A stretch of 64,000 nucleotides of DNA, taken from assembly GCF_010748935.1 (NCBI RefSeq), contig NZ_CP048796.1, positions 3,661,001 through 3,725,000 on the forward strand, read 5' to 3'. Made by a program: the position numbers and the translations under genes. Of the stretch, positions 36,108 to 54,173 are shown in pieces. Below the pieces are notes generated by a model. That model had not been told where the DNA came from. It did not search any database and saw nothing but the letters and a program-made list of their open reading frames with translations. Positions within the stretch are counted from its first letter, which is position 1; each line of letters begins with the position of its first letter. Source of the stretch: Providencia vermicola (GTDB lineage: Bacteria > Pseudomonadota > Gammaproteobacteria > Enterobacterales > Enterobacteriaceae).

Positions 36108-37355
36108 TTAGCGGTATATTGGTAATAAATTAAATTGTGCGAGTAATTGACAAATAATGCCCACAATTCCAAAAGTAATCACTGCATATATTAATCCTTT
36201 ACCTCCCCATACTTTAAATCTTGAATTCGGGAAACGTTCTCGCGCTTTCAAAGCCATTACCGCAGGACAAATAATGGCCCAAATACAGGCTGCCATTCCG
36301 GCATAAGCAATAGCAATTAAGAACCCATTAGGGAATAACATGCAGAGTATCAATGGGGGTAAAAAGCATAATAATGCCGATTTCATACGCCCTGAACTAT
36401 TATCTTGGAAATTTAAAGAGGCCAATATATAGTCAAATAAACCTATCGCAACACCTAAGAATGAACAGAATACAGCACTAATCGAAAACCATAATAAGAA
36501 AGTGGCAATATGTTGGCTGTTAAGTACGGAATACAGCGATTCAATAAAGGCATCAAGATTACCGCCTTTATTGATAATGGTTAAAAACTCCGGTCTTGGC
36601 AGATTCCCCATCGTACCCAATACCCATAAAAAATACAGGACCAATGCCAGCAAACACCCAATAATACAGCTCTTGACCACCTTACGTTCATTTTCATGAT
36701 ACAGCTTATATAGGCTACATACATTACCATGATAACCAAATGAAGTGATTGCATAGGGAATAATGATAAAAATAAAGGGAAGTAATGTTAACTGACTTTC
36801 TTTAGAGGGAATGGTTAATAATAAATCAGTTTTAACAATTAAAAAGAGCCCTGAGAATGCTAATATAAATAATATGATTTTAATTAATAAAAATATTGAT
36901 GTTAAACGGCTAGCACCAATACCACTCCACCAAATACTTGCACCTAATATAAAAGTAAAGATAACAAATATTAGCCTTAAATTAACATCAAATCCATATA
37001 TCGATGCAGCCTCTTTAATGACTGATCCCGCAGCAGAGATATAAGCATAAATTAAAATATATAATACAAATATTAAGGCTGCATTAGCAATATAACAAGC
37101 CCATTTAGGTAACAGCTCTTTGGAGATATAAAAATAATTAGTCCCTGAACCATATTTTGATATACATTCAAGAATATAGATTCCCGAATGAAACATAAAA
37201 AAACAAACAACTAATAGAATAACAACTGAATTAATAAACCATGCTCCTGCCATAATCGTGGGCAAACTAAACATACCTGCCCCTATCATAGCGCCACCGA
37301 GCACAAAGCCCCCTACCAATATGGAGGGTTCTTTCTTCGCTGTAGAATTATTCAT
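36108..37355 (-). CDS. tnaB: TnaB-like tryptophan permease
   Basis: Inner-membrane aromatic amino acid permease of the HAAAP family, importing tryptophan for tryptophanase. The frame is open to 37412, but ATG at 37355 has an AAGGT ribosome site and gives 415 residues, the same as E. coli TnaB. It shows GGAMIGAGMFSLPTIMAGAWF at the start, 11 hydrophobic segments, FGYHGNVCSLYK and FLPPLILCMLFPNGF. Its place 68 bases downstream of tnaA, before a terminator, supports TnaB over TyrP or Mtr. Confidence 0.9.
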   Translation of the reverse strand: MNNSTAKKEPSILVGGFVLGGAMIGAGMFSLPTIMAGAWFINSVVILLVVCFFMFHSGIYILECISKYGSGTNYFYISKELLPKWACYIANAALIFVLYILIYAYISAAGSVIKEAASIYGFDVNLRLIFVIFTFILGASIWWSGIGASRLTSIFLLIKIILFILAFSGLFLIVKTDLLLTIPSKESQLTLLPFIFIIIPYAITSFGYHGNVCSLYKLYHENERKVVKSCIIGCLLALVLYFLWVLGTMGNLPRPEFLTIINKGGNLDAFIESLYSVLNSQHIATFLLWFSISAVFCSFLGVAIGLFDYILASLNFQDNSSGRMKSALLCFLPPLILCMLFPNGFLIAIAYAGMAACIWAIICPAVMALKARERFPNSRFKVWGGKGLIYAVITFGIVGIICQLLAQFNLLPIYR

Positions 37356-37423
37356 GGTATTTACCTTAGAGAAATAAGGGGGGAGACTCCCGCGTTGCAC
37401 GGGAATCTCCAAATTATTACCTA

Positions 37424-38827
37424 TTATTTGATTGGTTTTAATCTCGCTGTAAAATGCCTTAATACTGGAGGTTCATATTCAAAATCCAGTCCTTTTAATG
37501 TTGGAAACTTATCTTTAAGACCAATTAATGCATCCGCAATATAATCCATATGATCATTGGTATAGACGCGCCTTGCTATTGTTAAACGCATAAACTCCAT
37601 ATCCGCATGTTTTTGTTTACCTGTTTCAGGATCTCGACCTAATAAAAATGAGCCAATTTCAACGGCACGAACCCCCGATTCAAGATACAGTGCATTGATA
37701 ACTGCTTGTGCAGGGAATTGATCCCCTGGGATTTGCGGAACCAATTTTTTACAGTCAACAAATACTGCATGTCCACCTGTAGGATATTGAATCGGGATCC
37801 CTCCTTCACGCAGCCGATCTCCTAGGTATTTGACTTGACCGATACGATAATGAAGATATTCTTCGTTAGCACCTTCTTCAAGCCCTTGTACCATGGCAGC
37901 CATATCACGGCCCGCTAAGCCACCATAAGTGACAAACCCTTCCATTGGTACGCAACGTTGCCTTGCTAAAGTAAATATATTTTCATCATTCTTAATCGCC
38001 ACTAAACCACCGATATTTAATAGCGGGTCTTTCTTCGCTGACATTGTTAACGCATCAGCGTATTTGTACATATCAAATATAATTTCTTTTATCGTTGCAT
38101 TTTTATATTTTGGGTCACGCTCTTTAATAAAATAGGCATTTTCACAGAAACGTGCCGAATCCATCACGACAAAAATATTGTGTTGTTTTGCAATCTCATA
38201 CACTTCTTTAAGATTTGACATTGCAACCGGTTGACCACCCGCACTATTACAGGTTACGGTTGAAACAATAGCAACTACGTTTTCAGCCCCATACTGAGCT
38301 ATATTATCTTTCAACTTCTGAATATCAAAATTGCCTTTCCAGTCATCATAGGTTTCAGAGTCATAGGCTTTTTCCGTAACAATATTAATCGCTTTACAAC
38401 CGTTTAACTCCACATGCGCTGCGGTTGTATCAAAATGGAAGTTCGAAATAAATACAGGCTTTTTGGCTCCTCCTTGTTGCCTTTTAACATTCAACAATAC
38501 AGGAAATAACATATTTTCAGCGCCACGTCCTTGGTGTGCAGGAATGGCATAATCATAGCCAAACATCTCTTTAACTTTATTTTTTAAATCGTAATAGTTA
38601 CGCGATCCTGCATATGCTTCATCACCCGTGATCATCGCTGCCCACTGGTGGTCACTCATTGCGTTAGTGCCTGAGTCAGTTAATAAATCGATATAAACAG
38701 CGCTACTGGGTAATAAGAACGGGTTGTAACCTGCCTCTTTTAATGCAGCTTCCCGCTCTTCTCGAGATGGAATACGAATATTTTCAACCATTTTAATACG
38801 GAACGGTTCTACGATTCTTTTAGCCAT
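37424..38827 (-). CDS. tnaA: Tryptophanase
   Basis: PLP-dependent lyase that converts L-tryptophan to indole, pyruvate and ammonia. The 467-residue protein is, by memory, nearly the same as Proteus vulgaris tryptophanase, including length. PLP lysine is Lys266 in MSAKKDPLL; other active-site segments are HQGRGAEN (98-105), [12 protein letters not shown] and [12 protein letters not shown]. It is tryptophanase and not tyrosine phenol-lyase because of the N-terminus [15 protein letters not shown] and the extra residues around 111-125. Ribosome site AAAGG. Preceded by tnaC. Confidence 0.97.
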
Positions 38828-39748: not shown

Positions 39749-40873
39749 CTATCTGGCCACACTGTATTTCACTAATCCGCCATTGTTTATTTCAATATCA
39801 TTAGAATAACTATTCGCTAATTTAATAAAAGTATTATCGACATTATTGAAGAGTCTATTGAAATCACTAAGCTCAGCTCGATGAGTTATATTACCGTCTG
39901 TTACGTTCATCAGTAAATATCCCCACTGACCTCGCCAATCTTCATTTAACAACACCGTTTGATTACTCACATGTAAACTATGCAAATGGTTGTATCCATT
40001 TTCAGTGATCACGGAAAATTCACCATTATCATTAAATTGTAACAATGAAAATAGCTTACGTGATGGCTCTTGTGCAATCGCATAAATATTGCCATTTGGT
40101 GATTGTTCAACTTCATTGATCCGTAACGGCAACCATTTATGTCCAACGACCTTTCCTTTATCAGTATCAAGGGTAATCTCAAGTGACCCCATGTCGTTAC
40201 CATAGCTATACCAGATAATAAGTTCATTGTTTTGGGTTGCAAATGAGAAGTTAGAATTATCCGCAATTTCTTCTGGATAATAAGACTTAACTAAGTCACG
40301 TACATTAGCCAAATATTGCCATGTGCTACCTTTATCAAGCGTTTTAAAAATAGCTTCATTACTCACGGATAAATAGGTTTGATCATTTTGTGTATGCAGT
40401 ATTTTCCCCATAATTAACGTAGAAAATTGTTCTCCATATTTATCCTGCCAAGGCTGCATCTTCGTGATGGAATAATCAGATAAATTTAAAACTCGACGAC
40501 CATCGTCAAAAAACAGTACACATTCCGTTTTATCACAGGCCGCATTATAAAAACTGTTATCCCCTTTATCTATATAATGTATTCCTGTCTCATCAGCAAA
40601 AAGCACCTGATAATTATAGTCATGGTAAGGTAGATTATAGGAAGAGTAATAGGCTGTATTGCGGCTACTTTGCGCAATAATCAACATTCCTGTTTCTGTA
40701 GGGTACGATTTTAACCAATCAAAGTCTGCAATTTCCATCGCATTCGCTTGGGGGTTATCCTGCCATGTCCACCCTTGTGCATTACCTCGGAAATGAAAAG
40801 CGATGGTTAAAATTACACAGATAATGAATGCTAACGTAATAATAATAAAATTCTTACTGAGAAATGGGTTCAT
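39749..40873 (-). CDS. Unknown membrane-anchored protein
   Basis: Not recognised. 374 residues with one N-terminal membrane helix (about 9-27: FIIITLAFIICVILTIAF) followed by an extracytoplasmic part rich in Trp, Tyr and beta-type repeats (IFKTLDKGSTWQYLANVRDL, HSLHVSNQTVLLNEDW), suggesting a beta-propeller such as a sortilin/BNR-type fold. Its ATG overlaps the upstream gene's stop (ATGA), so the two are coupled and probably form a complex. A terminator follows. Confidence 0.7.
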   Translation of the reverse strand: MNPFLSKNFIIITLAFIICVILTIAFHFRGNAQGWTWQDNPQANAMEIADFDWLKSYPTETGMLIIAQSSRNTAYYSSYNLPYHDYNYQVLFADETGIHYIDKGDNSFYNAACDKTECVLFFDDGRRVLNLSDYSITKMQPWQDKYGEQFSTLIMGKILHTQNDQTYLSVSNEAIFKTLDKGSTWQYLANVRDLVKSYYPEEIADNSNFSFATQNNELIIWYSYGNDMGSLEITLDTDKGKVVGHKWLPLRINEVEQSPNGNIYAIAQEPSRKLFSLLQFNDNGEFSVITENGYNHLHSLHVSNQTVLLNEDWRGQWGYLLMNVTDGNITHRAELSDFNRLFNNVDNTFIKLANSYSNDIEINNGGLVKYSVAR

Positions 40874-42132
40874 ACACGTACCTCAGTAACATAACCTGAC
40901 TTTCCACGTTTTAAGCGTAAATAACGTAAATAGTATTGAGTTTGAAAATGTATTCGGCCACGTTGCGACACCGAAAAATAAATTGTTATGCATAAAGCGC
41001 TCAAAAAGCCAATGCCTAATGAGATAGAGGATGCCATGCCAATAAACTCAATGCCATTATCCATCATATATTGCCAATCCCAACGATCCCAGTATCCCCC
41101 TCTTTCCAAGATATCAGCGATATTCATAGACAAAACCATAAGGGTAAAAAATGCGATCATTCCCACCATGAATATCCACAATAAATAATAAAAACTACGT
41201 TCTGGTGGCCAGCCCCCTCTACTTATTGAGTAAGCAAGCTGATCTTGCCGATTAAAAATACCAAAAACGATTTCTTCATTCTCAGCCTGACGTAATTTTT
41301 TATGGTAGACTTCAATGTCATCGCCTTGAGCCATAAATAAGCTATGGTTATTAAATACAGGTTCATTTACTGGTGTTATTACCGTAAATTGTTTTCTATC
41401 AATCTGTATTATTGTTATATTGCAAATTTCCTGAGGGCCTCGATATCTCATAATCGCACTCTGAAATGATTCCACTAAATTAACTTTGCCGCGAGTCAAA
41501 TTAAGCTCATCCTCCTGTGACATTTTAGGTTCACGGACAGCCTTAACTTTCATTGGTTTTATCTTAGGATTACGTGTACCTAATATATTAATTTGTGGTG
41601 TGTTTTCAGGTGTAATTTGATATTGCCCAGCAATAACCTTATCTAACGCTTTTAATATCCATTTTCTACGTGGGCTAATAATATAGCAGATCTCTTTTAT
41701 AACCAGAGCCACCATAACCACACCGCTAAATACGGCAAGACATGCCAATGACCCCAACAGAATGAGCCAAAAACTCTCTTCACCATAAGCAAAGCAAAAA
41801 TAAGCTAATATTGAGAATGAGGATAATCCAAGCGCCCATAAAAGTGATTTTAGCATTCCTCGATGAAAGCCAACCTCTCTATCAGGCTCCAACCGCCCCT
41901 TTGTTTGATGAAACACCCAATTAATCCAATAACTCCCATCATTTAATCTTTCAGCACAGATCACCAGTTCATCACCTTGTTCGAGTTTTTTTAAAAAAAC
42001 CTCACCGTGTTTAAAATCTGCAAGATTAAAAAAGAAGACGAGGTCAGACGCTATCAATCGAACCATTCCTGTCGGAATAACTTTTTGATAATCACACTGA
42101 GATAAAGTGACATTAAAATATTGAACACCCAT
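40870..42132 (-). CDS. Unknown polytopic membrane protein
   Basis: Not recognised. 420 residues with two pairs of membrane helices (about 92-112 and 122-146; about 312-336 and 360-388), each preceded by a soluble domain of similar pattern. Both soluble parts contain 'F...L..GD.I.V...L' stretches (VFLKKLEQGDELVICAERL and HSLFMAQGDDIEVYHKKL), so the protein looks like an internal duplication. First gene of a two-gene operon with the beta-rich protein at 39749. Possible roles include a sensor or an immunity complex; neither is supported directly. Confidence 0.7.
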   Translation of the reverse strand: MGVQYFNVTLSQCDYQKVIPTGMVRLIASDLVFFFNLADFKHGEVFLKKLEQGDELVICAERLNDGSYWINWVFHQTKGRLEPDREVGFHRGMLKSLLWALGLSSFSILAYFCFAYGEESFWLILLGSLACLAVFSGVVMVALVIKEICYIISPRRKWILKALDKVIAGQYQITPENTPQINILGTRNPKIKPMKVKAVREPKMSQEDELNLTRGKVNLVESFQSAIMRYRGPQEICNITIIQIDRKQFTVITPVNEPVFNNHSLFMAQGDDIEVYHKKLRQAENEEIVFGIFNRQDQLAYSISRGGWPPERSFYYLLWIFMVGMIAFFTLMVLSMNIADILERGGYWDRWDWQYMMDNGIEFIGMASSISLGIGFLSALCITIYFSVSQRGRIHFQTQYYLRYLRLKRGKSGYVTEVRV

Positions 42133-42412: not shown

Positions 42413-43129
42413 ATGACTTCACAACCAGCATACAAGCAAATTCAATCTTATATTCTGCGTAGTATTGATTTAGGTATTTTTAAGCCTGAAACACAGATAC
42501 CCACAGAACTAGAACTGTGCGCACAATTTAATGTGAGCCGCATGACAGTGAATAAGGCCATTTCGGAACTGAGCCAAAAAGGCATACTGAATCGCATTGC
42601 TGGTAAGGGAACCTTTGTCGCCTCGCAGAAACACGAGCTGCCTGTCACAAAAGCATTTGATATTTTCGATGAAATTTCATTAAGCGGTAATAAATATAGT
42701 GGTCATCAATTGCAACTCAAAGTCATTGCCGCTTCGGCTGAAATTGCTTTACAGCTCGGCGTGATGGAAGGCAGTGATATAAGCTATTGTAAGGTATTAC
42801 ATTTTGAAAATGATATTCCACTGATGCTTGAAGAACGCTATGTAAATCATGCCCTCGCACCTGATTTTGTGAAACAACACTTTGGTGATACTGAAACGCC
42901 GAGCGGCTACTTACAACGAAATTTTCCTGTCAGTGAGATGGAACATACCATTGAGGCCGCATTAGCGACTAAAGCGATTGCACAATCTTTATCAATTAAA
43001 GAAGGCTCACCGTGCTTACAGCTTAGCCGCCGTACGTGGACGGGTTCCACATTAATCAGCTATGTCCATATGATAACTGCCGGCTCGCGTTATAAATTAA
43101 AGCTACATTCACGTATTGATACACCTTAA
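42413..43129 (+). CDS. hutC: HutC-type GntR repressor
   Basis: GntR-family regulator of histidine utilisation that is released from DNA by urocanate in known systems. The 238-residue protein has a winged HTH (residues 1-72: ELCAQFNVSRMTVNKAISEL) and a UTRA ligand domain (about 90-232) with LMLEERYVNHALAPDF. No clear Shine-Dalgarno sequence precedes ATG 42413. It converges on the minus-strand operon that begins with hutU, so it most likely controls that operon. HutC is preferred over other UTRA regulators because of the hutU linkage and overall match. Confidence 0.85.
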   Translation: MTSQPAYKQIQSYILRSIDLGIFKPETQIPTELELCAQFNVSRMTVNKAISELSQKGILNRIAGKGTFVASQKHELPVTKAFDIFDEISLSGNKYSGHQLQLKVIAASAEIALQLGVMEGSDISYCKVLHFENDIPLMLEERYVNHALAPDFVKQHFGDTETPSGYLQRNFPVSEMEHTIEAALATKAIAQSLSIKEGSPCLQLSRRTWTGSTLISYVHMITAGSRYKLKLHSRIDTP

Positions 43130-43238: not shown

Positions 43239-44921
43239 TTACATACCTTGGTAGATTGGCCCTTCTCCCCCTTGTGGAGCTGTCCAACAAATATTTTGTG
43301 TTGGGTCTTTAATGTCGCAAGCCTTACAATGTAGGCAGTTCTGCGCATTAATCTGCAACTTAGGCTGGTCTTCAATACTCACAATTTCATACACTCCAGC
43401 GGGACAATAACGCGTCTCAGGAGCTGCATATTTAGGTAAATTCATCTTTGTCGGTACATGATTATCTTTTAATTTCAGATGACAAGGCTGGTCTTCCTCA
43501 TGATTTGTATTCGACAAAAAGACCGACGATGGCTTATCAAAGGTCAGAACACCATCCGGCTTTGGATAATCTATTGGCTGAAAATTATGAGCTTCCTGTA
43601 AACATTCATGGTCGGCCTGTTTTAATTTAAGAGTCCAAGGGGTTCGCCCCTTTAGTAAAAGCTGTTCAGCACCAAATAATAAGGAGCCTAAATACAAGCC
43701 TTTTTTCATATAAGGTTTGAAATTACGTGTTTGATGTAATTCTCGATACAGCCAGCTACGCTCGAATTTTTGACGATACTCTGTTTTAAACCTTGCATAA
43801 TCAATCACATCATCATTCATTGATTCAAACAATGCTTCCGCAGCAAGCGCACCACTTTTCACTGCACAATGGCTTCCTTTGATCCGTGCTGCATTTAAAA
43901 AACCGGCATCATCCCCTATTAATGCTCCACCTGGAAAACTCAATTCTGGTAATGCTGCCAATCCTCCAGCCACTAACGTGCGCGCACCGTAGCTAATTCG
44001 TTTACCACCTTTTAAAAAAGCACTGAGTGATGGATGCGTTTTGAGTCGTTGAAATTCATCAAAAGGTGATAAATAAGGATTTTCATAATTAAGGCCTACA
44101 ACTAAGCCAATAGCAACGAGGTTTTCACCATAATGGTAAGCAAAGCCACCACCGTACGTACGGCTATCTAAAGGCCAACCAATTGAGTGAACAACCAAGC
44201 CTGCTTGATGTTGTGGTTTAGGAATTTGCCAAATTTCTTTTAATCCTAACCCATAAGTTTGCTTTCCACGTCCACTGTCTAAATCAAAACGTTCTATAAG
44301 TTGCTTACCTAATTGGCCTCGACAACCTTCGGCAAAAAAGGTCATTTTAGCCAATAAGTTCATACCGGGCTGATACAGTGAAGTGGGGTTGCCTGATTTA
44401 TCAAGCCCCATATCCCCGGTTGTTATACCAATAACGGTGCCTTCATCATCGTAGAGTATTTCCGTTGCCGCAAAGCCTGCAAATACGTCGACGCCAAGCT
44501 GCTCTGCTTGTGAGGCTAATGCCGCACACACTTGGCCAAGGCTACCAATTAAATTCCCACTATTTTTTAAGCTAGCGGGCAATAAAGCCAGTGGTAACCG
44601 GCTTGCTTTCTGTTCTTTTAATAACAAAAAGCGGTCTTCTGTTACAGTTGTCAGCTCACTTGGCAGCATCTGCTGCCAATTCGGTAATAATTCATTCAAA
44701 GCTCGTGGATCAATAACCGCACCTGATAAGATATGAGCCCCTATTTCAGCACCTTTATCAATTAAACAAACAGATAACTCTTTGTTTTTCTCTGCCGCAA
44801 GTTGCTTTAGACGAATTGCAGCGGATAATCCTGCTGGCCCACCACCGACAATCAGGACATCAAACTCCATCGATTCCCGCTCGGGAGCCTCACTTACATT
44901 GACACTATTGTCGATAGCCAT
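43239..44921 (-). CDS. ETF:ubiquinone oxidoreductase
   Basis: Membrane-associated iron-sulphur flavoprotein that moves electrons from reduced ETF to quinone. The frame is open to 44999, but ATG 44921 (MAIDNSVNVSEAPERESM) has a GGGGGG ribosome site and gives 560 residues, typical of full-length ETF-QO. FAD-binding VLIVGGGPAGLSAAIRL (about 22-38), a central quinone and membrane-dipping region, and a C-terminal 4Fe-4S ferredoxin domain with CPAGVYE and CLHCKACDIKDP are fused in one chain, unlike E. coli FixC plus FixX. Last gene of the operon. Confidence 0.93.
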   Translation of the reverse strand: MAIDNSVNVSEAPERESMEFDVLIVGGGPAGLSAAIRLKQLAAEKNKELSVCLIDKGAEIGAHILSGAVIDPRALNELLPNWQQMLPSELTTVTEDRFLLLKEQKASRLPLALLPASLKNSGNLIGSLGQVCAALASQAEQLGVDVFAGFAATEILYDDEGTVIGITTGDMGLDKSGNPTSLYQPGMNLLAKMTFFAEGCRGQLGKQLIERFDLDSGRGKQTYGLGLKEIWQIPKPQHQAGLVVHSIGWPLDSRTYGGGFAYHYGENLVAIGLVVGLNYENPYLSPFDEFQRLKTHPSLSAFLKGGKRISYGARTLVAGGLAALPELSFPGGALIGDDAGFLNAARIKGSHCAVKSGALAAEALFESMNDDVIDYARFKTEYRQKFERSWLYRELHQTRNFKPYMKKGLYLGSLLFGAEQLLLKGRTPWTLKLKQADHECLQEAHNFQPIDYPKPDGVLTFDKPSSVFLSNTNHEEDQPCHLKLKDNHVPTKMNLPKYAAPETRYCPAGVYEIVSIEDQPKLQINAQNCLHCKACDIKDPTQNICWTAPQGGEGPIYQGM

Positions 44922-44931
44922 GATCCCCCCT

Positions 44932-45882
44932 TTAAGCCAACGCTTTATCAAATTCAGGTAAGATCTCGAATAGATCACCCACAATGCCATAATCAGCAAC
45001 TTGGAAAATCGGTGCTTCTGGATCGCGATTTATCGCCACGATCACTTTGCTCTCTTTCATACCTGCTATGTGCTGGATCGCACCTGATATTCCTACCGCA
45101 ATATAGAGATCGGGCGCAACGATCTTACCGGTTTGCCCAACTTGATAATCATTCGGTACATAACCTGCATCAACGGCAGCTCTCGATGCACCAACCGCGG
45201 CCCCAAGCTTATCAGCGATAGTTTCAAGCAGCGCAAAGTTTTCACTCGAATTTAAGCCTCTACCGCCTGATATCACGACCTTAGCAGAGCTCAATTCAGC
45301 TCGGCTCATTTGCGTTAATGATTGGCTTTTTAATTGAGATAACGGACTAAAATGATTAACAGTGCATTCTTCAATGGCAGCTGGACTTTGCGTTTCAGTC
45401 GTACCAGAAAAAGCGGAACTACGGATTGTTAATACAACTTGCTGACCATTATTTTGTACCGTTGCTAATGCGTTACCTGCATAAATAGGACGCACAAAAG
45501 TCTGTGCATTAATCACTTCAGTAATGTCAGAGATTTGTGCAACGCCTAACGTTGCTGCAACACGTGGAGCGATATTTTTACCGTAGGTTGTGGCAGGAAA
45601 TACTAAATGGCTATAGTTTTCAGCAACCGCAATCACGGCATCAGTCACAGTTTCAGCAAGCGGGTGAGCGAGCTCACTGTTATCTATGAGGATCACGTTT
45701 TCAACACCCGCGATCGTTGCCGCTTGCTCTGCCACCTGCTTACATTGATGTCCTGCAACAAGCAGATGCAGCTGTCCTTGCCCTGATAACATCTGTTTTG
45801 CGGCAGTCACACTATGGTACGTTGAAGATTTAATTGTTTGGTTATCGTGTTCAACCATAACTAATATGGATAATTGGCTCAT
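44932..45882 (-). CDS. etfA: Electron transfer flavoprotein alpha subunit
   Basis: ETF-alpha holds FAD and accepts electrons from acyl-CoA dehydrogenases. The 316-residue protein has the N-terminal domain I (MSQLSILVMVEHDNQ) and the C-terminal FAD domain with VVISGGRGLNSSENF (about 208-222), VGQTGKIVAPDLYIAVGISG and AINRDPEAPIFQVADYGIVG, the classical motifs. It is 14 bases after etfB and 10 bases before the ETF-QO gene. Confidence 0.94.
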   Translation of the reverse strand: MSQLSILVMVEHDNQTIKSSTYHSVTAAKQMLSGQGQLHLLVAGHQCKQVAEQAATIAGVENVILIDNSELAHPLAETVTDAVIAVAENYSHLVFPATTYGKNIAPRVAATLGVAQISDITEVINAQTFVRPIYAGNALATVQNNGQQVVLTIRSSAFSGTTETQSPAAIEECTVNHFSPLSQLKSQSLTQMSRAELSSAKVVISGGRGLNSSENFALLETIADKLGAAVGASRAAVDAGYVPNDYQVGQTGKIVAPDLYIAVGISGAIQHIAGMKESKVIVAINRDPEAPIFQVADYGIVGDLFEILPEFDKALA

Positions 45883-45896
45883 GATGATTCCCCCGA

Positions 45897-46652
45897 TTAA
45901 ATGACTTCTTTTGCTTGTAATTCACTGACTAATGCATTGACATCATTAAACAATGTGCACTGGCCTGATCGCTTTTTCGGTTCAGTCACGGTCAATATTT
46001 TTACCTGCCCTAATGGGGTAAAATTCATTTCAGAGATGTCTTGTATTTCAAGCGGCTTTTTCTTCGCTTTCATAATATTAGGCAGTGTTGCATAGCGAGG
46101 TTCATTCAAACGTAAATCGGTTGTTACGACCGCAGGTAGCGGTAAAGACAGCGTCTCTAAACCACCATCAATTTCACGTGTGACCTGTAATGATGAGCCT
46201 TCAACTTCAATGGAAGACGCAAAGGTTGCTTGCGCGCATTTAAGTAATGCCGCTAGCATTTGCCCTGTTTGATTACAATCATTATCAATCGCCTGTTTAC
46301 CGAGCAGAATTAAATCAGGCTGTTCAGCGATGACCACTTGCTGCAATAAACGAGCAATATCGAGAGGTTCTAGCACTAAATCATGAGGTCTTTGCATTAA
46401 AATTGCGCGATCAGCTCCGATTGCCATCGCACTACGCAACGTTTCTTGGGCGCTGTTATCCCCTATTGATACCACAACAATTTCATTCGCTTTACCAGCT
46501 TCTTTCAGGCGGACAGCTTCTTCAACTGCAATTTCATCGAAAGGATTAATCGCCATTTTGACATTCGCTAATTCCACACCGGAGCCATCCGCTTTCACAC
46601 GAACTTTAACGTTGTGATCAATAACTCTTTTAACAGCCACTAAAATTTTCAT
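45897..46652 (-). CDS. etfB: Electron transfer flavoprotein beta subunit
   Basis: ETF-beta binds AMP structurally and docks on dehydrogenases. The 251-residue protein has MKILVAVKRVIDHNVKVRVK at the start, the ETF-beta signature around VTTDLRLNEPRYATLPNIMKAKKKPLE split near residues 165-190, and the LILLGKQAIDNDCNQTGQML segment of group I (housekeeping, respiratory) ETFs. Ribosome site AGGAG. Preceded by a perfect hairpin at 46706-46730. Confidence 0.94.
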   Translation of the reverse strand: MKILVAVKRVIDHNVKVRVKADGSGVELANVKMAINPFDEIAVEEAVRLKEAGKANEIVVVSIGDNSAQETLRSAMAIGADRAILMQRPHDLVLEPLDIARLLQQVVIAEQPDLILLGKQAIDNDCNQTGQMLAALLKCAQATFASSIEVEGSSLQVTREIDGGLETLSLPLPAVVTTDLRLNEPRYATLPNIMKAKKKPLEIQDISEMNFTPLGQVKILTVTEPKKRSGQCTLFNDVNALVSELQAKEVI

Positions 46653-46705
46653 AAAGACTCCTAATTACTCTCTGCCAGAAGGTGTTTTTCAGGCTGAGCG
46701 GATCC

Positions 46706-46730
46706 TTAGCAGTGATTATTTCACTGCTAA
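46706..46730. repeat. perfect 10-base inverted repeat upstream of etfB
   Basis: TTAGCAGTGA - 5 bases - TCACTGCTAA between the permease and etfB genes. No T run follows on the minus strand, so it is more likely an mRNA processing or stability element, or an operator, than a terminator. Confidence 0.6.
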
Positions 46731-46787
46731 TATTCCCGCTTATTTTTGTTTTAACGTTATTTGTTACTTATATTTATTTGCTATGGG

Positions 46788-48230
46788 TTATGCATTTGAT
46801 GATGGCAGTATCAATCTGTCCGCTACTGACATTGGCCATATTTTAATTGCTGCATAGTAAATAATACTGGTAGCCACTAAGCCAACAATCCATGAGATAT
46901 CAACGCCCCCCAGTTGCTCAACCAAAGGCCCTGTATAGAAACCGGTTGCAATAAAAGGCAGTTGAATGAGGACGCCAATCACATAGGTAATAATGCCCAC
47001 TTTATTCCAACGCCCATAACGACCATTAGGATTTGATAATTCAGGGACGTCATAACGTCCTTTCGTTACCCAGTAGTAATCCACAAGATTGATTGCACTC
47101 CATGGTGTAAAGAATGCGAGTAAAAACAGTAAGAAGGCTGAAAATAGTTTTAAGAACGAGTGTTGTCCAGCAAGACCGAGAACCGTCGAAAAACTCACCA
47201 TCAAGATGATGAAAAACAACCTTTGACCACGAGAAATTTGCTGCTTACCACGGAAGCCACAGAAAATAGCCGCCATTGACATAAAACTGCCATATGCATT
47301 AAGTGCAGTGATCGTCACCTTACCAAAGAAAATACTGATATAGAGTAATGCTGCGATCAGTCCAGTACTACCAAGACCAACAATATAGGCAACTTCATGA
47401 CCCGCAAATGCATTACCTGCTAGGGCCGCCGCAAAGACCCCTAAGATCATTGATGCTTGAGTTCCAATAACCGTTCCCGAACCTACCGCTAAAAATGCTT
47501 TAATGGTTGGTGTTTTTGTCGGTAGATAACGAGAGTAGTCCGCAACATAAGGACCAAATGCAATTTGCCATGATGCCGACAAAGACATCGCGAGTAAGAA
47601 GTTAGTCCAACTGAAATGGCGATTTTCCAATAAAACCGACACATCATTCATATAGAATAAGCGGAAGAATAGGTAGAAGAAGGCGATCACACCAATCACA
47701 CTCGCCGCTTTACCTAACATGTGAATGATTCGATAACCACAGATCGTGATTGCGATGATCACGGCACCAAAGATCAAAATTCCTACCCAATCACTGACAT
47801 TCAGTAATTGCCCAACAGCTTGCCCTGCCAATACGGTACCACTAGCAGAGAAACCGACGTACATCATGCACACTAACAGTATTGGGATTACCGCACCATA
47901 TACACCAAACTGAACACGACTTGAGATCATTTGTGGCAGTCCGAGTTTTGGCCCTTGCACGGCATGCAATGCCATAACAGCTCCCCCCAACAATTGGCCA
48001 ATAAATAAACCAATTAATGACCAAAATACATCACCTCCTAACACGACAGCCAATGCCCCTGTCACGATAGCCGTAATTTGTAAGTTGGCACCGAACCAAA
48101 GGGTAAATTGGCTCGATAATGTCCCGTGGCGTTCCGACTCAGGAATATAGTCTATTGATCGTGCTTCGATTAAAGGAACATTATCCTGCCGATGTTTTTT
48201 GTCTGCGGTTATGTCGTTTGAAACTGTCAT
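46788..48230 (-). CDS. NCS1-family permease, putative imidazole-acid importer
   Basis: Nucleobase:cation symporter-1 family (cytosine/purine permease type). 480 residues with about 12 membrane segments after a soluble N-terminus carrying RSIDYIPESERHGT. Family features include FTLWFGANLQITAIVTGAL in helix 1, GPYVADYSRYLP in the helix 6 region, and a C-terminal NLVDYYWVTKGRYDVPEL. Related permeases carry urocanate in Pseudomonas hut clusters, from memory. Placed inside the hutU operon, it probably imports imidazole propionate or urocanate; a nucleobase is the alternative. Confidence 0.87.
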   Translation of the reverse strand: MTVSNDITADKKHRQDNVPLIEARSIDYIPESERHGTLSSQFTLWFGANLQITAIVTGALAVVLGGDVFWSLIGLFIGQLLGGAVMALHAVQGPKLGLPQMISSRVQFGVYGAVIPILLVCMMYVGFSASGTVLAGQAVGQLLNVSDWVGILIFGAVIIAITICGYRIIHMLGKAASVIGVIAFFYLFFRLFYMNDVSVLLENRHFSWTNFLLAMSLSASWQIAFGPYVADYSRYLPTKTPTIKAFLAVGSGTVIGTQASMILGVFAAALAGNAFAGHEVAYIVGLGSTGLIAALLYISIFFGKVTITALNAYGSFMSMAAIFCGFRGKQQISRGQRLFFIILMVSFSTVLGLAGQHSFLKLFSAFLLFLLAFFTPWSAINLVDYYWVTKGRYDVPELSNPNGRYGRWNKVGIITYVIGVLIQLPFIATGFYTGPLVEQLGGVDISWIVGLVATSIIYYAAIKIWPMSVADRLILPSSNA

Positions 48231-48452
48231 GGTAACTCCTCTTTAAGCAAGGCTGGCTTAAAGAATGAACCAATTTGTCATAATGGTTGTTGTAGGGTAC
48301 AGCCATTAGACGCTAAGTCGGACGTTATTATGTTTTTATAAACAGCCCGCCATTAAAAATTGAAATACATTCTTAAACCTGGTTGTTGTTGTGTTTTTAA
48401 TTCCATGATCCTGTTATCAGGTCGTTCATCCTATTGCAGTTTTTACTCATTA

Positions 48453-48477
48453 CTGGTGGATCCTGTCCATCCACCAG
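48453..48477. repeat. perfect inverted repeat between acyl-CoA dehydrogenase and permease genes
   Basis: CTGGTGGAT - 7 bases - ATCCACCAG within the 265-base intercistronic gap, 19 bases beyond the dehydrogenase stop. No T run on the minus strand. It may protect the upstream mRNA or partly reduce expression of the downstream genes. Confidence 0.55.
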
Positions 48478-48495
48478 CGTATTCATCTTTCACGA

Positions 48496-49635
48496 TTAAA
48501 CCGAATCTAAAACCGCTCGCGAAATAATGATCTTTTGAATTTCTGAAGTGCCTTCAAAAATTCGTAAAATGCGTGCATCACGTACATAACGTTCTAAAGG
48601 TAAATCACGAATATAACCGTAGCCACCATGCAGCTGTAATGCCGCATCGGTCACAAAGCCAGCGCACTCCGCGGCAAATAATTTTGCTGTTGCGGATTGC
48701 AAACTAAAACGCTCTCCTGAGTCACGGCACTCTGCCGCATGCCAAGTCAGCATACGCGCTGCTTCTAACTGTGTGTACATATCTGCAAGACGCCACTGGG
48801 TGCCTTGATAAGCCGCTAATGGCTTTTTACCGATTTGACGCTCTTTAACCCAATTTAAAGCACATTCCATCGCTGCACGAGCGATCCCTAATGACGTGGC
48901 TGCCACTTCAACACGCCCTTTATCTAAGACTTCCATGGCTGTATGAAAGCCTTTATTTTCTTCGCCTAATAGGGCCGACTCAGGCAACCAGCAGTTCAAT
49001 GCAAGCTCATAGATTGTACTCCCACGTAGCCCCATGGTTTTTTCTGGGGAAGAAAACTCAACACCCTCAGTACCTTTAGGGATCATAAATGCACTGATAC
49101 CACGGGCACCGGCTTCTGGGTTTGTTTTGGCATATAAGACAATAAAATCAGCTTCTTTAGCATTGGTAATATAATGTTTATTTCCGCGAATTCGCCAGCC
49201 TCCATTTTCTCGGGTAGCGACAGTGCGCATATCTGCTGGATTTGATCCTGCTGCGGGTTCTGTCAGACCAAAAGCGCCTAACATCTCACCACTTGCTGCT
49301 TTAGGTAACCAATACTGCTTTTGCTCCTCGGTACCCCCTATTAGGATCGAATCTGTTGCAAGGAAATGAGCCGTTAACGCGGATGAAGTTGATGCGCAAG
49401 CGGCCGCTACGGCTTCGACGATCATACTCATCGCAATACTACCAATGCCGAACCCACCATATTGCTCAGGTAAATTGATCCCCCAACATCCCATCTCCCC
49501 TAGAGCAGCCAAACTTTCCGCACAAAAAGTTTCTGTCTCATCATAACGTTGTGCATTCACTTGCAGAATGTCACGACAAACCTTTTCAACAGCATCGACA
49601 ATTGCTTGTTCTGTCTCATCTATTTGAAAGCTCAT
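48496..49635 (-). CDS. Acyl-CoA dehydrogenase
   Basis: FAD-dependent alpha-beta dehydrogenase acting on a CoA thioester and passing electrons to ETF. The 379-residue protein has FGLTEPAAGSNPADM (flavin and substrate binding, about 126-140), the second signature LQLHGGYGYIRDLPLERYVRDARI, and the catalytic Glu in RIFEGTSEIQKIII, the position used by short/medium-chain enzymes. It overlaps the CoA-transferase gene by 4 bases (ATGA). In this context the likely substrate is imidazolepropionyl-CoA, giving urocanoyl-CoA. Confidence 0.92.
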   Translation of the reverse strand: MSFQIDETEQAIVDAVEKVCRDILQVNAQRYDETETFCAESLAALGEMGCWGINLPEQYGGFGIGSIAMSMIVEAVAAACASTSSALTAHFLATDSILIGGTEEQKQYWLPKAASGEMLGAFGLTEPAAGSNPADMRTVATRENGGWRIRGNKHYITNAKEADFIVLYAKTNPEAGARGISAFMIPKGTEGVEFSSPEKTMGLRGSTIYELALNCWLPESALLGEENKGFHTAMEVLDKGRVEVAATSLGIARAAMECALNWVKERQIGKKPLAAYQGTQWRLADMYTQLEAARMLTWHAAECRDSGERFSLQSATAKLFAAECAGFVTDAALQLHGGYGYIRDLPLERYVRDARILRIFEGTSEIQKIIISRAVLDSV

Positions 49636-50816
49636 TGTATTGCCTCCGCATTTTTAATTGTTATATTGGCTGATTTATAAGCATGATTGGCTTCGCCCAA
49701 GCGAGGTGCTCTTTGCATGGCTCGCGGCTTGCTACCATTAAAGAAAACAGGTTGAGATACTAACGGGGTTCCACCATCATCAAGGTAAGTGAGAACTTGA
49801 CGAGCCTTTGCATGTTCGCTTTGTGTCGCTTGCTGCAAATTTTGGATCGGTGAAGCAGGCACCCCTGCGTTTAGCAGTTGCTCACACACTTCTTCAACCG
49901 TTTTTTGTGATGTCCAATGTTCGATTTCTTTTCTAAGATCCGCGTGGTAAAGGGTTCGCGTTGGATCATCTTTATAGCGAGGATCATTGCGTAGTTCAGG
50001 CCGCCCCATACACTCACAGAAACGTTGGAAAAGCTTTTCACTGGCAATAGCAATAACAACTTGCCCATCTCGTGCTTGATAGGTATCAAAAGGTGTTGAA
50101 ACAGGATGACGATTTCCCACTAAGCCCGGCGCTTGACCGTGTGCAAATAGATTTGATAGTCCTGTCAGCTGCATACTCAACAGCACATCGACCATCGCAA
50201 CATCAATATATTGAGCATGTTCTTGGTGAGCTTCTCGCGCAAACAAGGCGCTGCTGATCGCCCAAGCAGCAAAGATGCCAGCACAGACATCCCCTATCGA
50301 CTCCCCACTACGTGTTGGGCCTGTTTCAGGAAACCCCGTTACACTCATTAATCCTGACATTGCTTGTGCAACAATGTCATAAGCAGGATAGTTAGCAAGT
50401 GGGCTGTCTTGCCCAAAGCCAGATATGCTGGCATAGATAAGTCTAGGGTTATGCTGTTTCAAACTGTCAAAATCAATTCCCAATCTTGCCGTAACACCCG
50501 GTCGAAAATTTTCGACGACCACATCACTCTCTTTCACGAGTTGATATAAGATCTCTAGGTCGTTCTCGGATTTAAGATCAAGCTCAATACTGCGCTTTCC
50601 TCGATTGATCAGCCCGTAATAAACACTTTCACCCTCAATAAAGGGACCTAAATGACGACTGTCATCACCATGGTCAGGCACTTCTATTTTGATCACTTCA
50701 GCACCTAGGTCAGCCATCATGCCTGTACAATAAGGCCCTGCAAGCACACGACTGAGATCGATCACTTTGATCCCTGATAATGGCCCTGCTCTTTTTTGTG
50801 TTGACACCATTTTCAT
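49632..50816 (-). CDS. CaiB/family III CoA-transferase
   Basis: Transfers CoA between a CoA ester and a free acid through an aspartyl intermediate. The 394-residue protein has GIKVIDLSRVLAGPYCTGMM at the start, VVVENFRPGVTARLG, the catalytic Asp in NYPAYDIVAQAMSG (about 150-163), and TRSGESIGDVCAG. Strong AAGGA ribosome site. Located 51 bases after hutU and coupled to the dehydrogenase. Inferred role: activates imidazole propionate with CoA from urocanoyl-CoA, so that one transferase starts and ends the cycle. Confidence 0.92.
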   Translation of the reverse strand: MKMVSTQKRAGPLSGIKVIDLSRVLAGPYCTGMMADLGAEVIKIEVPDHGDDSRHLGPFIEGESVYYGLINRGKRSIELDLKSENDLEILYQLVKESDVVVENFRPGVTARLGIDFDSLKQHNPRLIYASISGFGQDSPLANYPAYDIVAQAMSGLMSVTGFPETGPTRSGESIGDVCAGIFAAWAISSALFAREAHQEHAQYIDVAMVDVLLSMQLTGLSNLFAHGQAPGLVGNRHPVSTPFDTYQARDGQVVIAIASEKLFQRFCECMGRPELRNDPRYKDDPTRTLYHADLRKEIEHWTSQKTVEEVCEQLLNAGVPASPIQNLQQATQSEHAKARQVLTYLDDGGTPLVSQPVFFNGSKPRAMQRAPRLGEANHAYKSANITIKNAEAIQ

Positions 50817-50867
50817 ACTGATATCCTTATAAAACGAGCCAGCCTCAAATAAGGCTGGCCAAAAGCG

Positions 50868-52535
50868 CTACTTGACCATCGGTAAGTTCAGCCCTTGCTG
50901 TTTTGCGCAGTTAATGGCAATGTCATAACCCGCATCAGCATGACGCATCACCCCAGTCGCAGGGTCGTTATGTAAAACACGAGCCAGACGTTTGTCTGCG
51001 GCATCTGTCCCATCACAAACAATGACCACACCAGCATGTTGGGAAAAGCCCATTCCTACACCACCACCATGATGCAGGCTGACCCATGTTGCGCCTCCCG
51101 CGGTATTCAATAACGCATTTAATAGAGGCCAATCAGAGACCGCATCCGAGCCATCTTTCATTGATTCTGTTTCGCGGTGTGGACTTGCCACAGAGCCTGA
51201 ATCCAAGTGATCACGGCCAATGACAATAGGCCCTTTCAACTCACCATTTTTTACCATTTCATTAAACGCACGACCGAGTCTTTCACGATCTTTTAAACCA
51301 ACCCAACAAATACGTGCTGGCAAACCTTGAAATGCAATGCGTTCACGAGCCATATCCAGCCAATTATGCAGATGCTTATCGTCAGGAATTAACTCTTTTA
51401 CTTTTTGATCTGTTTTATAGATATCTTCAGGATCGCCAGATAAAGCAACCCAGCGGAATGGCCCGATGCCTTCACAGAATAGAGGGCGAATATAAGCCGG
51501 AACAAAGCCCGGAAAATCAAAGGCATTACTGATACCTTCATCTTTAGCCATTTGACGAATGTTATTCCCATAGTCAAATGCCGCTGAGCCGCGTTTTTGC
51601 ATGGTTAACATCGCATCAACCTGTACCGCCATACTTTTCTTAGCCGCTTTCGTGACTTCAGCCGGTGCTGTTTTTTGCTTCTCACGCCACTGTGTTAATG
51701 TCCAGCCTTGAGGTAAATAACCATGAACAGGGTCATGTGCACTCGTTTGGTCGGTAACAGAGTCAGGAATAATGTTACGTTTAACTAATTCGCTATAGAC
51801 ATCGGCTGCATTTCCTAATAAACCGACAGAAACAGGCTTGCCGTCATTTTTGGCTTGTTCAATATATTGCAATGCCTCATCCAGGGATGTGGCTTTTTTA
51901 TCGACATATCGAGTTCTTAGGCGAAAATCGATACGACTTTCATCACATTCAACGGCAATCATGCTAAAACCTGCCATTGTCGCTGCTAAAGGTTGAGCGC
52001 CCCCCATTCCCCCGAGACCACCGGTCAGGATCCAACGACCCGCAGGGTTACCCTTAAAATGCTGTTTAGCTAAAGAAACAAAGGTTTCATAGGTACCTTG
52101 AACAATGCCTTGTGAACCTATATAGATCCAAGAACCCGCGGTCATTTGACCGTACATCATCAAACCTTTTTTATCTAGCTCATTGAAATATTCCCAATTT
52201 GCCCAATGAGGGACAATATTTGAGTTAGCAATTAATACACGGGGTGCATCCGGATGAGTTGGAAAAACACCAACAGGTTTGCCGGATTGCACAAGTAAAG
52301 TTTGATCATCTTCGAGTGTTTTTAATACCTCTAAAATTTTGTCATAACATTCCCAATCACGAGCTGCACGACCAATTCCACCGTACACGACTAAGCTTTG
52401 TGGATGTTCAGCCACATCAGGATCTAAGTTGTTTTGGATCATGCGGTACACGGCTTCAGTGAGCCAGCTTTTACAAGTTTTCTCGCTGCCACGTGGAGCG
52501 CGGATAACACGTGTAGAGTCAGTACGGTTTAGCAT
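50868..52535 (-). CDS. hutU: Urocanate hydratase
   Basis: Hydrates urocanate to 4-imidazolone-5-propionate using NAD+ as electrophile; second step of histidine breakdown. The 555-residue protein has [20 protein letters not shown], the NAD-binding [37 protein letters not shown] and [20 protein letters not shown], all classical. Ribosome site GAGGA. It leads a minus-strand operon with CoA-ester desaturation and ETF genes, and no hutH, hutI or hutG is nearby. Confidence 0.97.
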
Positions 52536-53174
52536 TGCTGTATCCTCTATTTCTTTATTTTACTTAACATTTTTACAACAATAAATGATGTTTATAATGA
52601 GTCATTACTTATCACGTAAAAATCCCTTTTGGATAAAAAACGCATATAATCAATCTATTAGTGGTATTTTCAGTGCTGGTTTTTATCCTCTCCGGAGGAT
52701 TCGTCTTCGACTTGCCTTTAAATATATATACATTTAATTCACAAAGTATATACATTTAAATTTGAATTTTTGTATAAAGATTAGATAGAAAGAGGATGAG
52801 CAACTATACAACAAAGGTTAACTCGCTATTTATTCACAACAAAATGTATAGACAATTGAACACTTCTCTAAACATAAACAAATAGCTGAAATGCGAAGTG
52901 CTTCACATTACTGGCTCACAAAAAGCTGTCACTAGCATGGCAACTCTATTTCTAAACACGACCATTCTCTCAATCAATGGAAAATTGATTGAGTTTCATT
53001 ATTTTTTGCAATATCGGTTTATTCAAAAAGATTACAATTATTTCTAATTTAATAAATAGTAAATAATATAAAACCTAAACTCTGAAAAATAAATTAAGGC
53101 CATTAATCATTCAATAAAAAGTCATCAATAACACCTTTTAATAAAATAGCATTAATCATAAAGGAATAGCCTCA
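52536..53174. other. 639-base divergent spacer upstream of hutU
   Basis: AT-rich region with no gene. It holds the operator candidates at 52724-52759 and a possible minus-strand promoter near hutU: TTTACG (52620-52615), 17-base spacer, TTATAA (52597-52592). A short palindrome ATCCTC-TCCG-GAGGAT lies around 52685-52700. The right half (52800-53174) also serves as leader of the plus-strand gene at 53175. Confidence 0.5.
52724..52759. promoter_or_regulatory. candidate tandem HutC operators
   Basis: Two copies of TATATACATTTAA (52725-52737 and 52747-52759) are 22 bases apart, two helical turns. The second contains GTATATAC (52746-52753), an exact match to the HutC-subfamily pattern GTnTAnAC; the first has ATATATAC (52724-52731), one mismatch. 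They lie about 190-210 bases upstream of hutU. Confidence 0.5.
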
Positions 53175-54173
53175 GTGAGAGTTTCAAATAAAGCAGTCAT
53201 GGATATTACAACGTTAAACAATAGAGCTGTTGAGCCTAGAAAAATATCTAAGATCACTGCAAAAAATTTATTTAGCTTCCCTTTTTTTAAAAAGAAGCCA
53301 CAACAACATATCCCCCATCTCAATGAAATATTTTATCCACCAGCAAGCTATTTTAGCCATATCACTCAGGCGGTAGAAACACAACAACACCGAACCCTCT
53401 CTAGCCAATCTATTTCTGTATTGTGTCGGTCTGAAAACTATCGATACACCATAAAACCAGAAAACTACTCATTTAAAATAATATCTTTTAAAATCAATGA
53501 AAAACCCCCCATTTCATTCGTAAGCGATATTCAGCGATTTCGCTTAAATTATATTACTGATAAAAATCAAACAATTAGAATCACAACATCACAAGATGTT
53601 GCCAATCGTTTTTCCAGCAACACATTACCTATTATGAAATTTATTGAGCAAACTTATCAAGACGATCTGCGAGAGACACTGGATAAACTCATTATTGATA
53701 AATCTCAATATAAACTACTCTGCCTAGATGGAGTGAATAATCATGAGATAAATATAGGGAAAGTCGCCTCATCTAACGCTATCGATAGTGAGTTTGGTTT
53801 TCAAGGGTTAAGAAATCTCTCTTCAATATTAGACATGGATGTAGAGAATATTATCCAAACATACCGTGTGCTTGAAGACCAAAATAAATTACAAGAAATG
53901 CCCGTTAAGATGCTAGTCGATCATCTCTTATTAAGGGATCTTAATAATGGTTCTGTTTTATTACTCAAACAAAAGTTAGCGGATATTTATGAAACGACCT
54001 ATCAAGTGACCAGTAATAAATGCTTTGAACTCATCAATATTAAAAATAAGCAATCGTATTCAAATATCAAAATAAAAACGTCAACAGCGAGTGTTATTAC
54101 TCTGTATAAAAAGAAAAATCAATTTATCATGAAGTATGTTAATGCCCCATTAACGGTCAACATTAAACGTTAA
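53175..54173 (+). CDS. Hypothetical protein, unrecognised
   Basis: 332 residues from a GTG start preceded by AAGGA at nine bases; an ATG at 53199 is the alternative. No signal peptide, membrane helix or known motif is seen. The N-terminus is basic and disordered-looking (SKITAKNLFSFPFFKKKPQQ), and the rest is mixed alpha/beta with many Asn, Ile and Lys. Codon use is AT-rich, like horizontally acquired genes. Located between the hutU operon and livF, possibly on the island edge. An effector-like or orphan protein is possible; nothing supports a specific role. Confidence 0.6.
   Translation: MRVSNKAVMDITTLNNRAVEPRKISKITAKNLFSFPFFKKKPQQHIPHLNEIFYPPASYFSHITQAVETQQHRTLSSQSISVLCRSENYRYTIKPENYSFKIISFKINEKPPISFVSDIQRFRLNYITDKNQTIRITTSQDVANRFSSNTLPIMKFIEQTYQDDLRETLDKLIIDKSQYKLLCLDGVNNHEINIGKVASSNAIDSEFGFQGLRNLSSILDMDVENIIQTYRVLEDQNKLQEMPVKMLVDHLLLRDLNNGSVLLLKQKLADIYETTYQVTSNKCFELINIKNKQSYSNIKIKTSTASVITLYKKKNQFIMKYVNAPLTVNIKR

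Follow-up and report, generated by a model that had tools for sequence, protein, structure and literature searches.

Results and discussion

A probable satellite operon for imidazole propionate oxidation

In a 64,000-nucleotide stretch of the 4.43 Mb genome of Providencia vermicola (C1:3661001-3725000, hereafter the window) we found an operon that is very probably a satellite of the histidine utilization (hut) pathway, in which imidazole propionate (dihydrourocanate) would be oxidised to urocanate by a coenzyme A (CoA) thioester route, with the electrons passing to quinone. This reading was put forward in a first-pass annotation made from the letters alone, and it is supported by linkage to hut genes in Pseudomonadota and in a Bacillota family, by hutU genes of several origins, by HutC-type operators, and by a canonical electron transfer flavoprotein (ETF) accompanied by the sole ETF:ubiquinone oxidoreductase (ETF-QO) of the genome.

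The unit holds seven genes on the minus strand. It opens with hutU2 (50868..52535), the second copy of this gene in the genome, whose 555-amino-acid product finds its best Protein Data Bank match in the urocanate hydratase 1uwl, and continues with a family III (CaiB/BaiF-type) CoA-transferase of 394 amino acids (49632..50816; PF02515, 411.5 bits), an acyl-CoA dehydrogenase of 379 amino acids (48496..49635; PF00441, PF02771 and PF02770), an NCS1 permease (46788..48230; PF02133), etfB (45897..46652), etfA (44932..45882) and the gene for ETF-QO (43239..44921). The transferase and dehydrogenase genes overlap by 4 bp and the intergenic gaps are at most 51 bp, except ahead of the permease gene (265 bp) and of etfB (135 bp), so that hutU2 to ETF-QO are likely carried on one transcript. 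With the TTG listed as its start, ETF-QO would overlap etfA, and an ATG at 44921 behind AGGGGGG fits better, giving a likely protein of 560 amino acids. All seven genes are intact open frames by profile matches, with the families and the order that had been assigned to them, and in ETF-QO the quinone-binding and 4Fe-4S domains are both present; the protein matches 2gmh_A, an ETF-ubiquinone oxidoreductase that we take to be the porcine enzyme, over nearly its whole length (631.3 bits). The HutC regulator said to close the unit is likewise present and intact, but this gene, hutC2 (42413..43129; a GntR/UTRA regulator of the HutC type, TIGR02018 244.3 bits, cut-off 220), lies on the plus strand, convergent with the operon and outside the interval 43239..52535. 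The order of the eight genes is identical in all 11 other Providencia loci fetched, and the dehydrogenase occurs in 23 of 24 Providencia genomes (host included), which argues that the arrangement is not due to chance. The dehydrogenase is 93-99% identical in the 22 other genomes, and the closest named locus is that of P. stuartii NCTC11800 (transferase 94%, dehydrogenase 99% identical).

In the proposed pathway, the NCS1 permease would import imidazole propionate and the CoA-transferase would move CoA onto it, most likely from urocanoyl-CoA, so that CoA would be recycled and urocanate released. The acyl-CoA dehydrogenase would introduce the alpha,beta double bond to give urocanoyl-CoA, the electrons would flow through ETF and ETF-QO to quinone, and HutU2 would hydrate the urocanate, with hutI and the later steps acting from elsewhere in the genome. 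HutC-type regulators could repress the operon until relieved by urocanate or imidazole propionate. The gene families, their linkage, the single ETF-QO, the conserved operator-like sites and the trees are observed here, whereas we infer the substrate, the direction, the CoA donor, the transport and the induction; the CoA cycle, in which each urocanoyl-CoA would pass CoA on to a further imidazole propionate, is modelled on how related transferases work.

Histidine ammonia-lyase had been noted as absent, which is true of the stretch, but hutH is found in the classical hut locus of the host genome at about C1:1770300-1777130, together with hutI, hutC1, hutU1 (C1:1773935) and an amino acid permease. 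The operon was too strongly described as complete: breakdown beyond the HutU step needs hutI and later enzymes, which are encoded elsewhere. As hutH, another hutU and hutI are all present elsewhere in the genome, the operon is a feeder branch, or satellite, of histidine utilization.

Linkage of the CoA-transferase and dehydrogenase pair to hut genes

We drew loci from genome contigs with the CoA-transferase alone as query, taking the best 80 of 180 relatives, and identified neighbours as the best tblastn matches of Providencia queries (from the window and its own genome), with Oceanobacillus queries added for loci of the Oceanobacillus family. A line of at least 60% transferase identity, chosen after the list was seen, gave 45 orthologous loci among the 80, from Pseudomonas (30), Providencia (11), Citrobacter (2), Ignatzschineria (1) and Wohlfahrtiimonas (1); two of the loci, L016 and L037, are from one strain. 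The dehydrogenase adjoins the transferase in 45 of 45. For hutU we allowed at most 2.5 kb between midpoints and left out the 15 loci with less than 1.9 kb upstream; in the 30 loci counted, which have at least 1.9 kb upstream, hutU lies within this distance in 25, and the other five have a HutC-type gene within 4.5 kb. The co-occurrence of hutU-type clusters with these genes across genomes, which had been suggested as a check, is thus borne out. Both enzymes show the marks of their families: the transferase has its PF02515 domain and Asp176, to which we presume the catalytic role of the corresponding residue in formyl-CoA transferase, conserved in 53/53 aligned sequences, and the dehydrogenase has three acyl-CoA dehydrogenase domains and Glu361, presumably the catalytic base, also conserved in 53/53. 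In the order, the transferase was detected at E <=1e-150 in 1 of 394 genomes drawn, the host itself; two Citrobacter nevertheless carry the cluster.

Among the 35 more distant transferase loci, a dehydrogenase match was found within 2 kb in five, and three (L048, L049 and L052) have hutU beyond 2.5 kb. L049, from Oceanobacillus, is a real hut locus with the order hutU, hutI, an arginase-family gene, transferase, dehydrogenase, an SSF transporter, hutH and an aminotransferase. Searching 159 genomes of the Oceanobacillus family for the transferase (E <=1e-120, the seed genome of L049 counted) yielded seven carriers; the dehydrogenase is with it in all seven (the seed and 6/6 others), and hutU, hutI and hutH lie within about 9 kb in 7/7. 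These enzymes are far diverged from those of the window (43-50% identical for the transferase, 39-44% for the dehydrogenase). Two further proteins of these loci are an AraC-type regulator and an SSF transporter, not NCS1. By our reading of these sequences, the strongest evidence for the predicted pathway is that the pair accompanies urocanate hydratase in two distantly related forms. Two loci of this family also carry two HutU-like genes each, one of them more divergent (L108:11017 and 12780; L109:3898 and 11802).

Urocanate hydratase genes of several origins

HutU2 is predicted to be a urocanate hydratase: it exceeds the TIGR01228 cut-off over its full length (979.5 versus 375 bits) and falls below the cut-offs for thiourocanate hydratase (699.9 of 930) and S-methylthiourocanate hydratase (718.7 of 880). 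We therefore rejected a thiourocanate cluster. These scores also bear on the possibility that the same chemistry serves another substrate, a substituted imidazolyl- or heteroaryl-propionate (for example methylated or thio-imidazole propionate) that would give the matching urocanate analogue for HutU2. That HutU2 is a separate paralogue with 76% identity to HutU1, and that thiourocanate hydratases are known relatives would be compatible with such a role, but the high score with the urocanase model speaks for urocanate itself, as do the Pseudomonas cluster HutU proteins, which mix with ordinary ones in the tree described below, and two genomes whose sole hutU is in the cluster. We regard another substrate as quite improbable.

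We searched 21 genomes whole for hutH and hutU and found hutH over its cut-off in every one, two full hutU genes in 14 and one in seven (two of these seven also have fragments). In two Pseudomonas loci, L014 and L022, the sole hutU of the genome precedes the pair, with hutH divergent and hutI downstream; L022 reads hutH (divergent), hutU, transferase, dehydrogenase, NCS1, hutI and N-formylglutamate amidohydrolase. The Ignatzschineria locus has hutI inside the cluster, between NCS1 and etfB.

In a HutU tree of 43 rows (long-branch warnings for L096, L048, L052 and L049; the row L098, automatically labelled 'main', is the window's own locus), the cluster hutU genes do not form one clade, and we rejected a single block moving with its own hutU on this ground. 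The Providencia cluster proteins join the non-cluster, hutH-linked HutU of Ignatzschineria (99/97), those of Citrobacter stand apart, the Pseudomonas cluster copies are mixed among hutH-linked ones, and in two cases the cluster protein is paired with the second HutU of the same genome (L033 with L092, 100/96; L042 with L090, 99/96). This pattern suggests that hutU was either recruited more than once, which is how we read it, or overwritten by gene conversion between a genome's two hutU genes. Either way, as judged from the tree, the transferase and dehydrogenase pair accompanies working-type urocanase genes of different origin. A separate observation concerns Wohlfahrtiimonas, where the sole HutU (L096:5171-6787) is very divergent (37% to HutU1, 437.7 bits) and sits in a hutH-linked locus, the cluster itself being without hutU.

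Electron transfer and the direction of flow

The ETF of the operon is closest to canonical ETFs. Among solved structures, EtfB scores 288.1 bits with 1efp_B against 100.5 with CarD of the caffeyl-CoA reductase complex, and EtfA 312.6 bits with human ETF alpha against 153.9 with CarE; the closest solved relatives are the Paracoccus and human ETFs for both subunits and 2gmh for ETF-QO. A bifurcating or caffeyl-CoA reductase-type (CarDE/FixAB) reductive system was rejected on these comparisons. In the host genome ETF alpha has a single PF00766 match and ETF-QO a single PF21162 and a single PF05187 match, all in the operon. We counted ETF-QO in 19 of 22 genomes (G002, G020 and G021 were left out; cluster membership was judged by hand from positions) and found one in each. 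It lies in the cluster in all nine non-Pseudomonas hosts (five Providencia, two Citrobacter, Ignatzschineria and Wohlfahrtiimonas) and outside it in 10/10 Pseudomonas; an Escherichia coli control genome had no PF05187 match. These positions indicate that the cluster brings the quinone route along where the host otherwise has none.

The carnitine (CaiA/CaiB/FixABCX) and caffeate (CarC/CarDE) systems resemble the operon in that a transferase cycles CoA between substrate and product acids and an acyl-CoA dehydrogenase fold works with ETF. They reduce an enoyl-CoA, whereas the canonical ETF of the operon is paired with a respiratory ETF-QO, which points to oxidation. Likewise, the urocanate-consuming HutU in the same operon makes oxidation the likely direction.

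Several results weigh against this reading. No hutU is linked in five of the 30 orthologous loci counted, and of the 35 more remote transferase loci not one has hutU within 2.5 kb. No HutC-type site was seen upstream of hutC2, and the permease closely resembles one for urocanate. An etfB is also present in five Pseudomonas loci (L027, L034, L036, L038 and L039), three of which have etfA as well, so that possession of ETF genes by the cluster is not limited to hosts that lack a housekeeping set. The best NCBIfam profiles of the dehydrogenase and of both ETF subunits belong to the reductive acryloyl-CoA reductase complex, with scores far below its cut-offs (384.7 of 640 for the dehydrogenase, 169.1 of 600 and 121 of 475 for the ETF subunits), and both ETF-QO and acyl-CoA dehydrogenases can in principle work in either direction. 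We hold imidazole propionate oxidation to be very probable all the same, because the case rests on the linkage and on ETF-QO.

Some of the same points could be read as signs of the reverse flow, in which urocanate would serve as electron acceptor, being converted to urocanoyl-CoA and reduced to imidazole propionate by quinol electrons through ETF-QO and ETF, a CoA-dependent counterpart of the urocanate reductase UrdA. The sub-threshold acryloyl-CoA reductase matches and the likeness of the permease to a urocanate permease would be compatible with this, Providencia is a facultative anaerobe, and a reductive route would not be redundant in the host: UrdA is a flavoprotein with an FMN_bind domain, and the host genome has no UrdA-sized FMN_bind protein, the two FMN_bind matches being in open frames of 211 and 290 amino acids. 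Against reduction stand the canonical ETF and the full respiratory type of ETF-QO, the orthologues in 30 loci of Pseudomonas, which are mostly respiratory aerobes, and the dedicated hutU, which consumes urocanate and would compete with its reduction. We therefore hold reverse flow in this operon to be improbable.

A more speculative extension is that CoA-dependent interchange of imidazole propionate and urocanate could form a module that is common in histidine metabolism and was put together independently in Pseudomonadota and Bacillota, and which would run oxidatively in respirers such as Providencia and in reverse in some gut anaerobes, as a UrdA-free route to imidazole propionate. We consider this rather unlikely as a whole. 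A possible anaerobic and perhaps reductive version is a locus in a chicken-gut Clostridium metagenome-assembled genome (L054:5475-21060), which holds an arginase-family gene, two acyl-CoA dehydrogenases, a CoA-transferase, etfBA, formate-tetrahydrofolate ligase and a HutI-like amidohydrolase; no hutU match was found in the stretch examined.

The NCS1 permease and its relatives in the HutTu position

HutTu is described, in passages of PMC12977541 and PMC12772324, as the urocanate transporter PA5099, encoded beside hutH (PA5098) and hutU (PA5100). The window permease shares 70-71% identity with the permeases that occupy the HutTu position in four Pseudomonas hut loci, a label that we gave by position, between hutU and hutH, and not by name. 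In a permease tree that included three unlinked close copies and three NCS1 proteins of 40-41% identity, the four HutTu-position permeases form one clade (95/99) without any of the 44 cluster permeases, that of the window included, and the backbone is open, so that HutTu may derive from within the cluster-type permeases. Identity of the window permease with HutTu was rejected because it falls outside this clade. Both kinds occur together in four genomes (G006, G007, G011 and G012), and their coexistence, with the separate HutTu clade, would agree with two related substrates without establishing them. Import of imidazole propionate is a guess, because the nearest named relative imports urocanate.

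The same identity could be taken to mean that the satellite serves urocanate uptake only, NCS1 and hutU2 using external urocanate while the acyl-CoA enzymes, ETF and ETF-QO form an unrelated acid-degrading module that is adjacent by chance. Chance adjacency is hard to reconcile with a pair whose linkage to hut genes spans two phyla, with enzymes that have diverged and with a transporter of another kind, SSF, in the Oceanobacillus locus L049, and we think it most improbable.

HutC-type sites and a hairpin

Pseudomonas HutC binds TGTA-N2-TACA, as stated in a passage of PMC12977541. The conserved promoter block of hutU2 holds two putative sites of this type on the minus strand, 22 bp apart (52723..52732 and 52745..52754), each with one mismatch and with an identical ten-base sequence in all 12 Providencia compared. 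An outer, third site on the same strand (52845..52854) has one mismatch here and in L051 and is perfect in the other ten, so that each of the 12 promoters has three sites, exact or with one mismatch. The host's own hutU1 promoter has a perfect site. In other clusters, 14 hutU promoters have a perfect (12) or a one-mismatch (2) site; this carries less weight, since such sites also occur in the promoters of ordinary hutU genes. We also looked upstream of seven transferase genes without an adjacent hutU: a perfect site was found for L036, L041 and L046 and one-mismatch sites only for L044, and none was found for the distant genes L047, L050 and L053.

The stretch is A+T-rich, which raises chance matches, and the window has 22 matches at up to one mismatch against a shuffle mean of 30. 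As the total is below that mean, we put the weight on the clustering and on the conservation in 12/12 promoters, by which chance was set aside. The operon is thus predicted to belong to the HutC regulon.

The gap between hutU2 and the transferase gene (50817-50867) contains a hairpin on the minus strand (50837..50860) with a 10-pair stem and a T-rich tail, and several other Providencia have, as read by eye, a similar inverted-repeat-like sequence with changing letters. It is possibly a partial terminator and perhaps an element of differential expression.

Relation to known systems and significance

The operon shares with the hut pathway HutU and HutC proteins that pass curated cut-offs, TGTA-N2-TACA-type sites and a permease near those in the HutTu position; it differs in lacking hutH and hutI and in adding a CoA-transferase, an acyl-CoA dehydrogenase, ETF and ETF-QO ahead of urocanate. 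UrdA is given in a passage of PMC13320830 as the urocanate reductase that produces imidazole propionate. It concerns the same two metabolites but belongs to another enzyme family and works in the opposite direction. The literature searched had, among the matches listed, no genes named for imidazole propionate removal, the work listed being on production and disease links, and no mention of urocanoyl-CoA or imidazolepropionyl-CoA. Degradation as an activity is not new: going by the title of a 1973 paper by Coote and Hassall, Pseudomonas testosteroni reportedly degrades imidazolylpropionate, which would be the same substrate as proposed here, compared by title alone. A gene cluster for it was not found in the literature searched, which covered few subscription journals. 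Imidazole propionate is also said, in the title of a 1965 paper by Schlesinger and Magasanik, to be a nonmetabolizable inducer in Aerobacter aerogenes.

Published titles link imidazole propionate, which is made by microbes, to diabetes and heart failure. If the proposed pathway is correct, the operon would provide marker genes for predicting consumers of this metabolite and a candidate route for its removal, it could supply the genetic basis for the activity in the 1973 title, and carriers could use as food what has been described as an inducer.

Neighbouring genes in the window

Next to hutC2, two overlapping genes on the minus strand (39749-42132) encode proteins of 374 and 420 amino acids, for which neither Pfam nor NCBIfam (at 0.001) nor PHROGs (at 0.01) gave a match; Pfam at E <=1 gave weak matches only. 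A 332-amino-acid open frame upstream of hutU2 (53175-54173, plus strand) had no Pfam or PHROGs match. Further along, the minus strand at 36108-38827 carries a beta-eliminating lyase, which we take to be of the tryptophanase/tyrosine phenol-lyase subfamily, followed by a gene that by eye resembles an amino acid permease.

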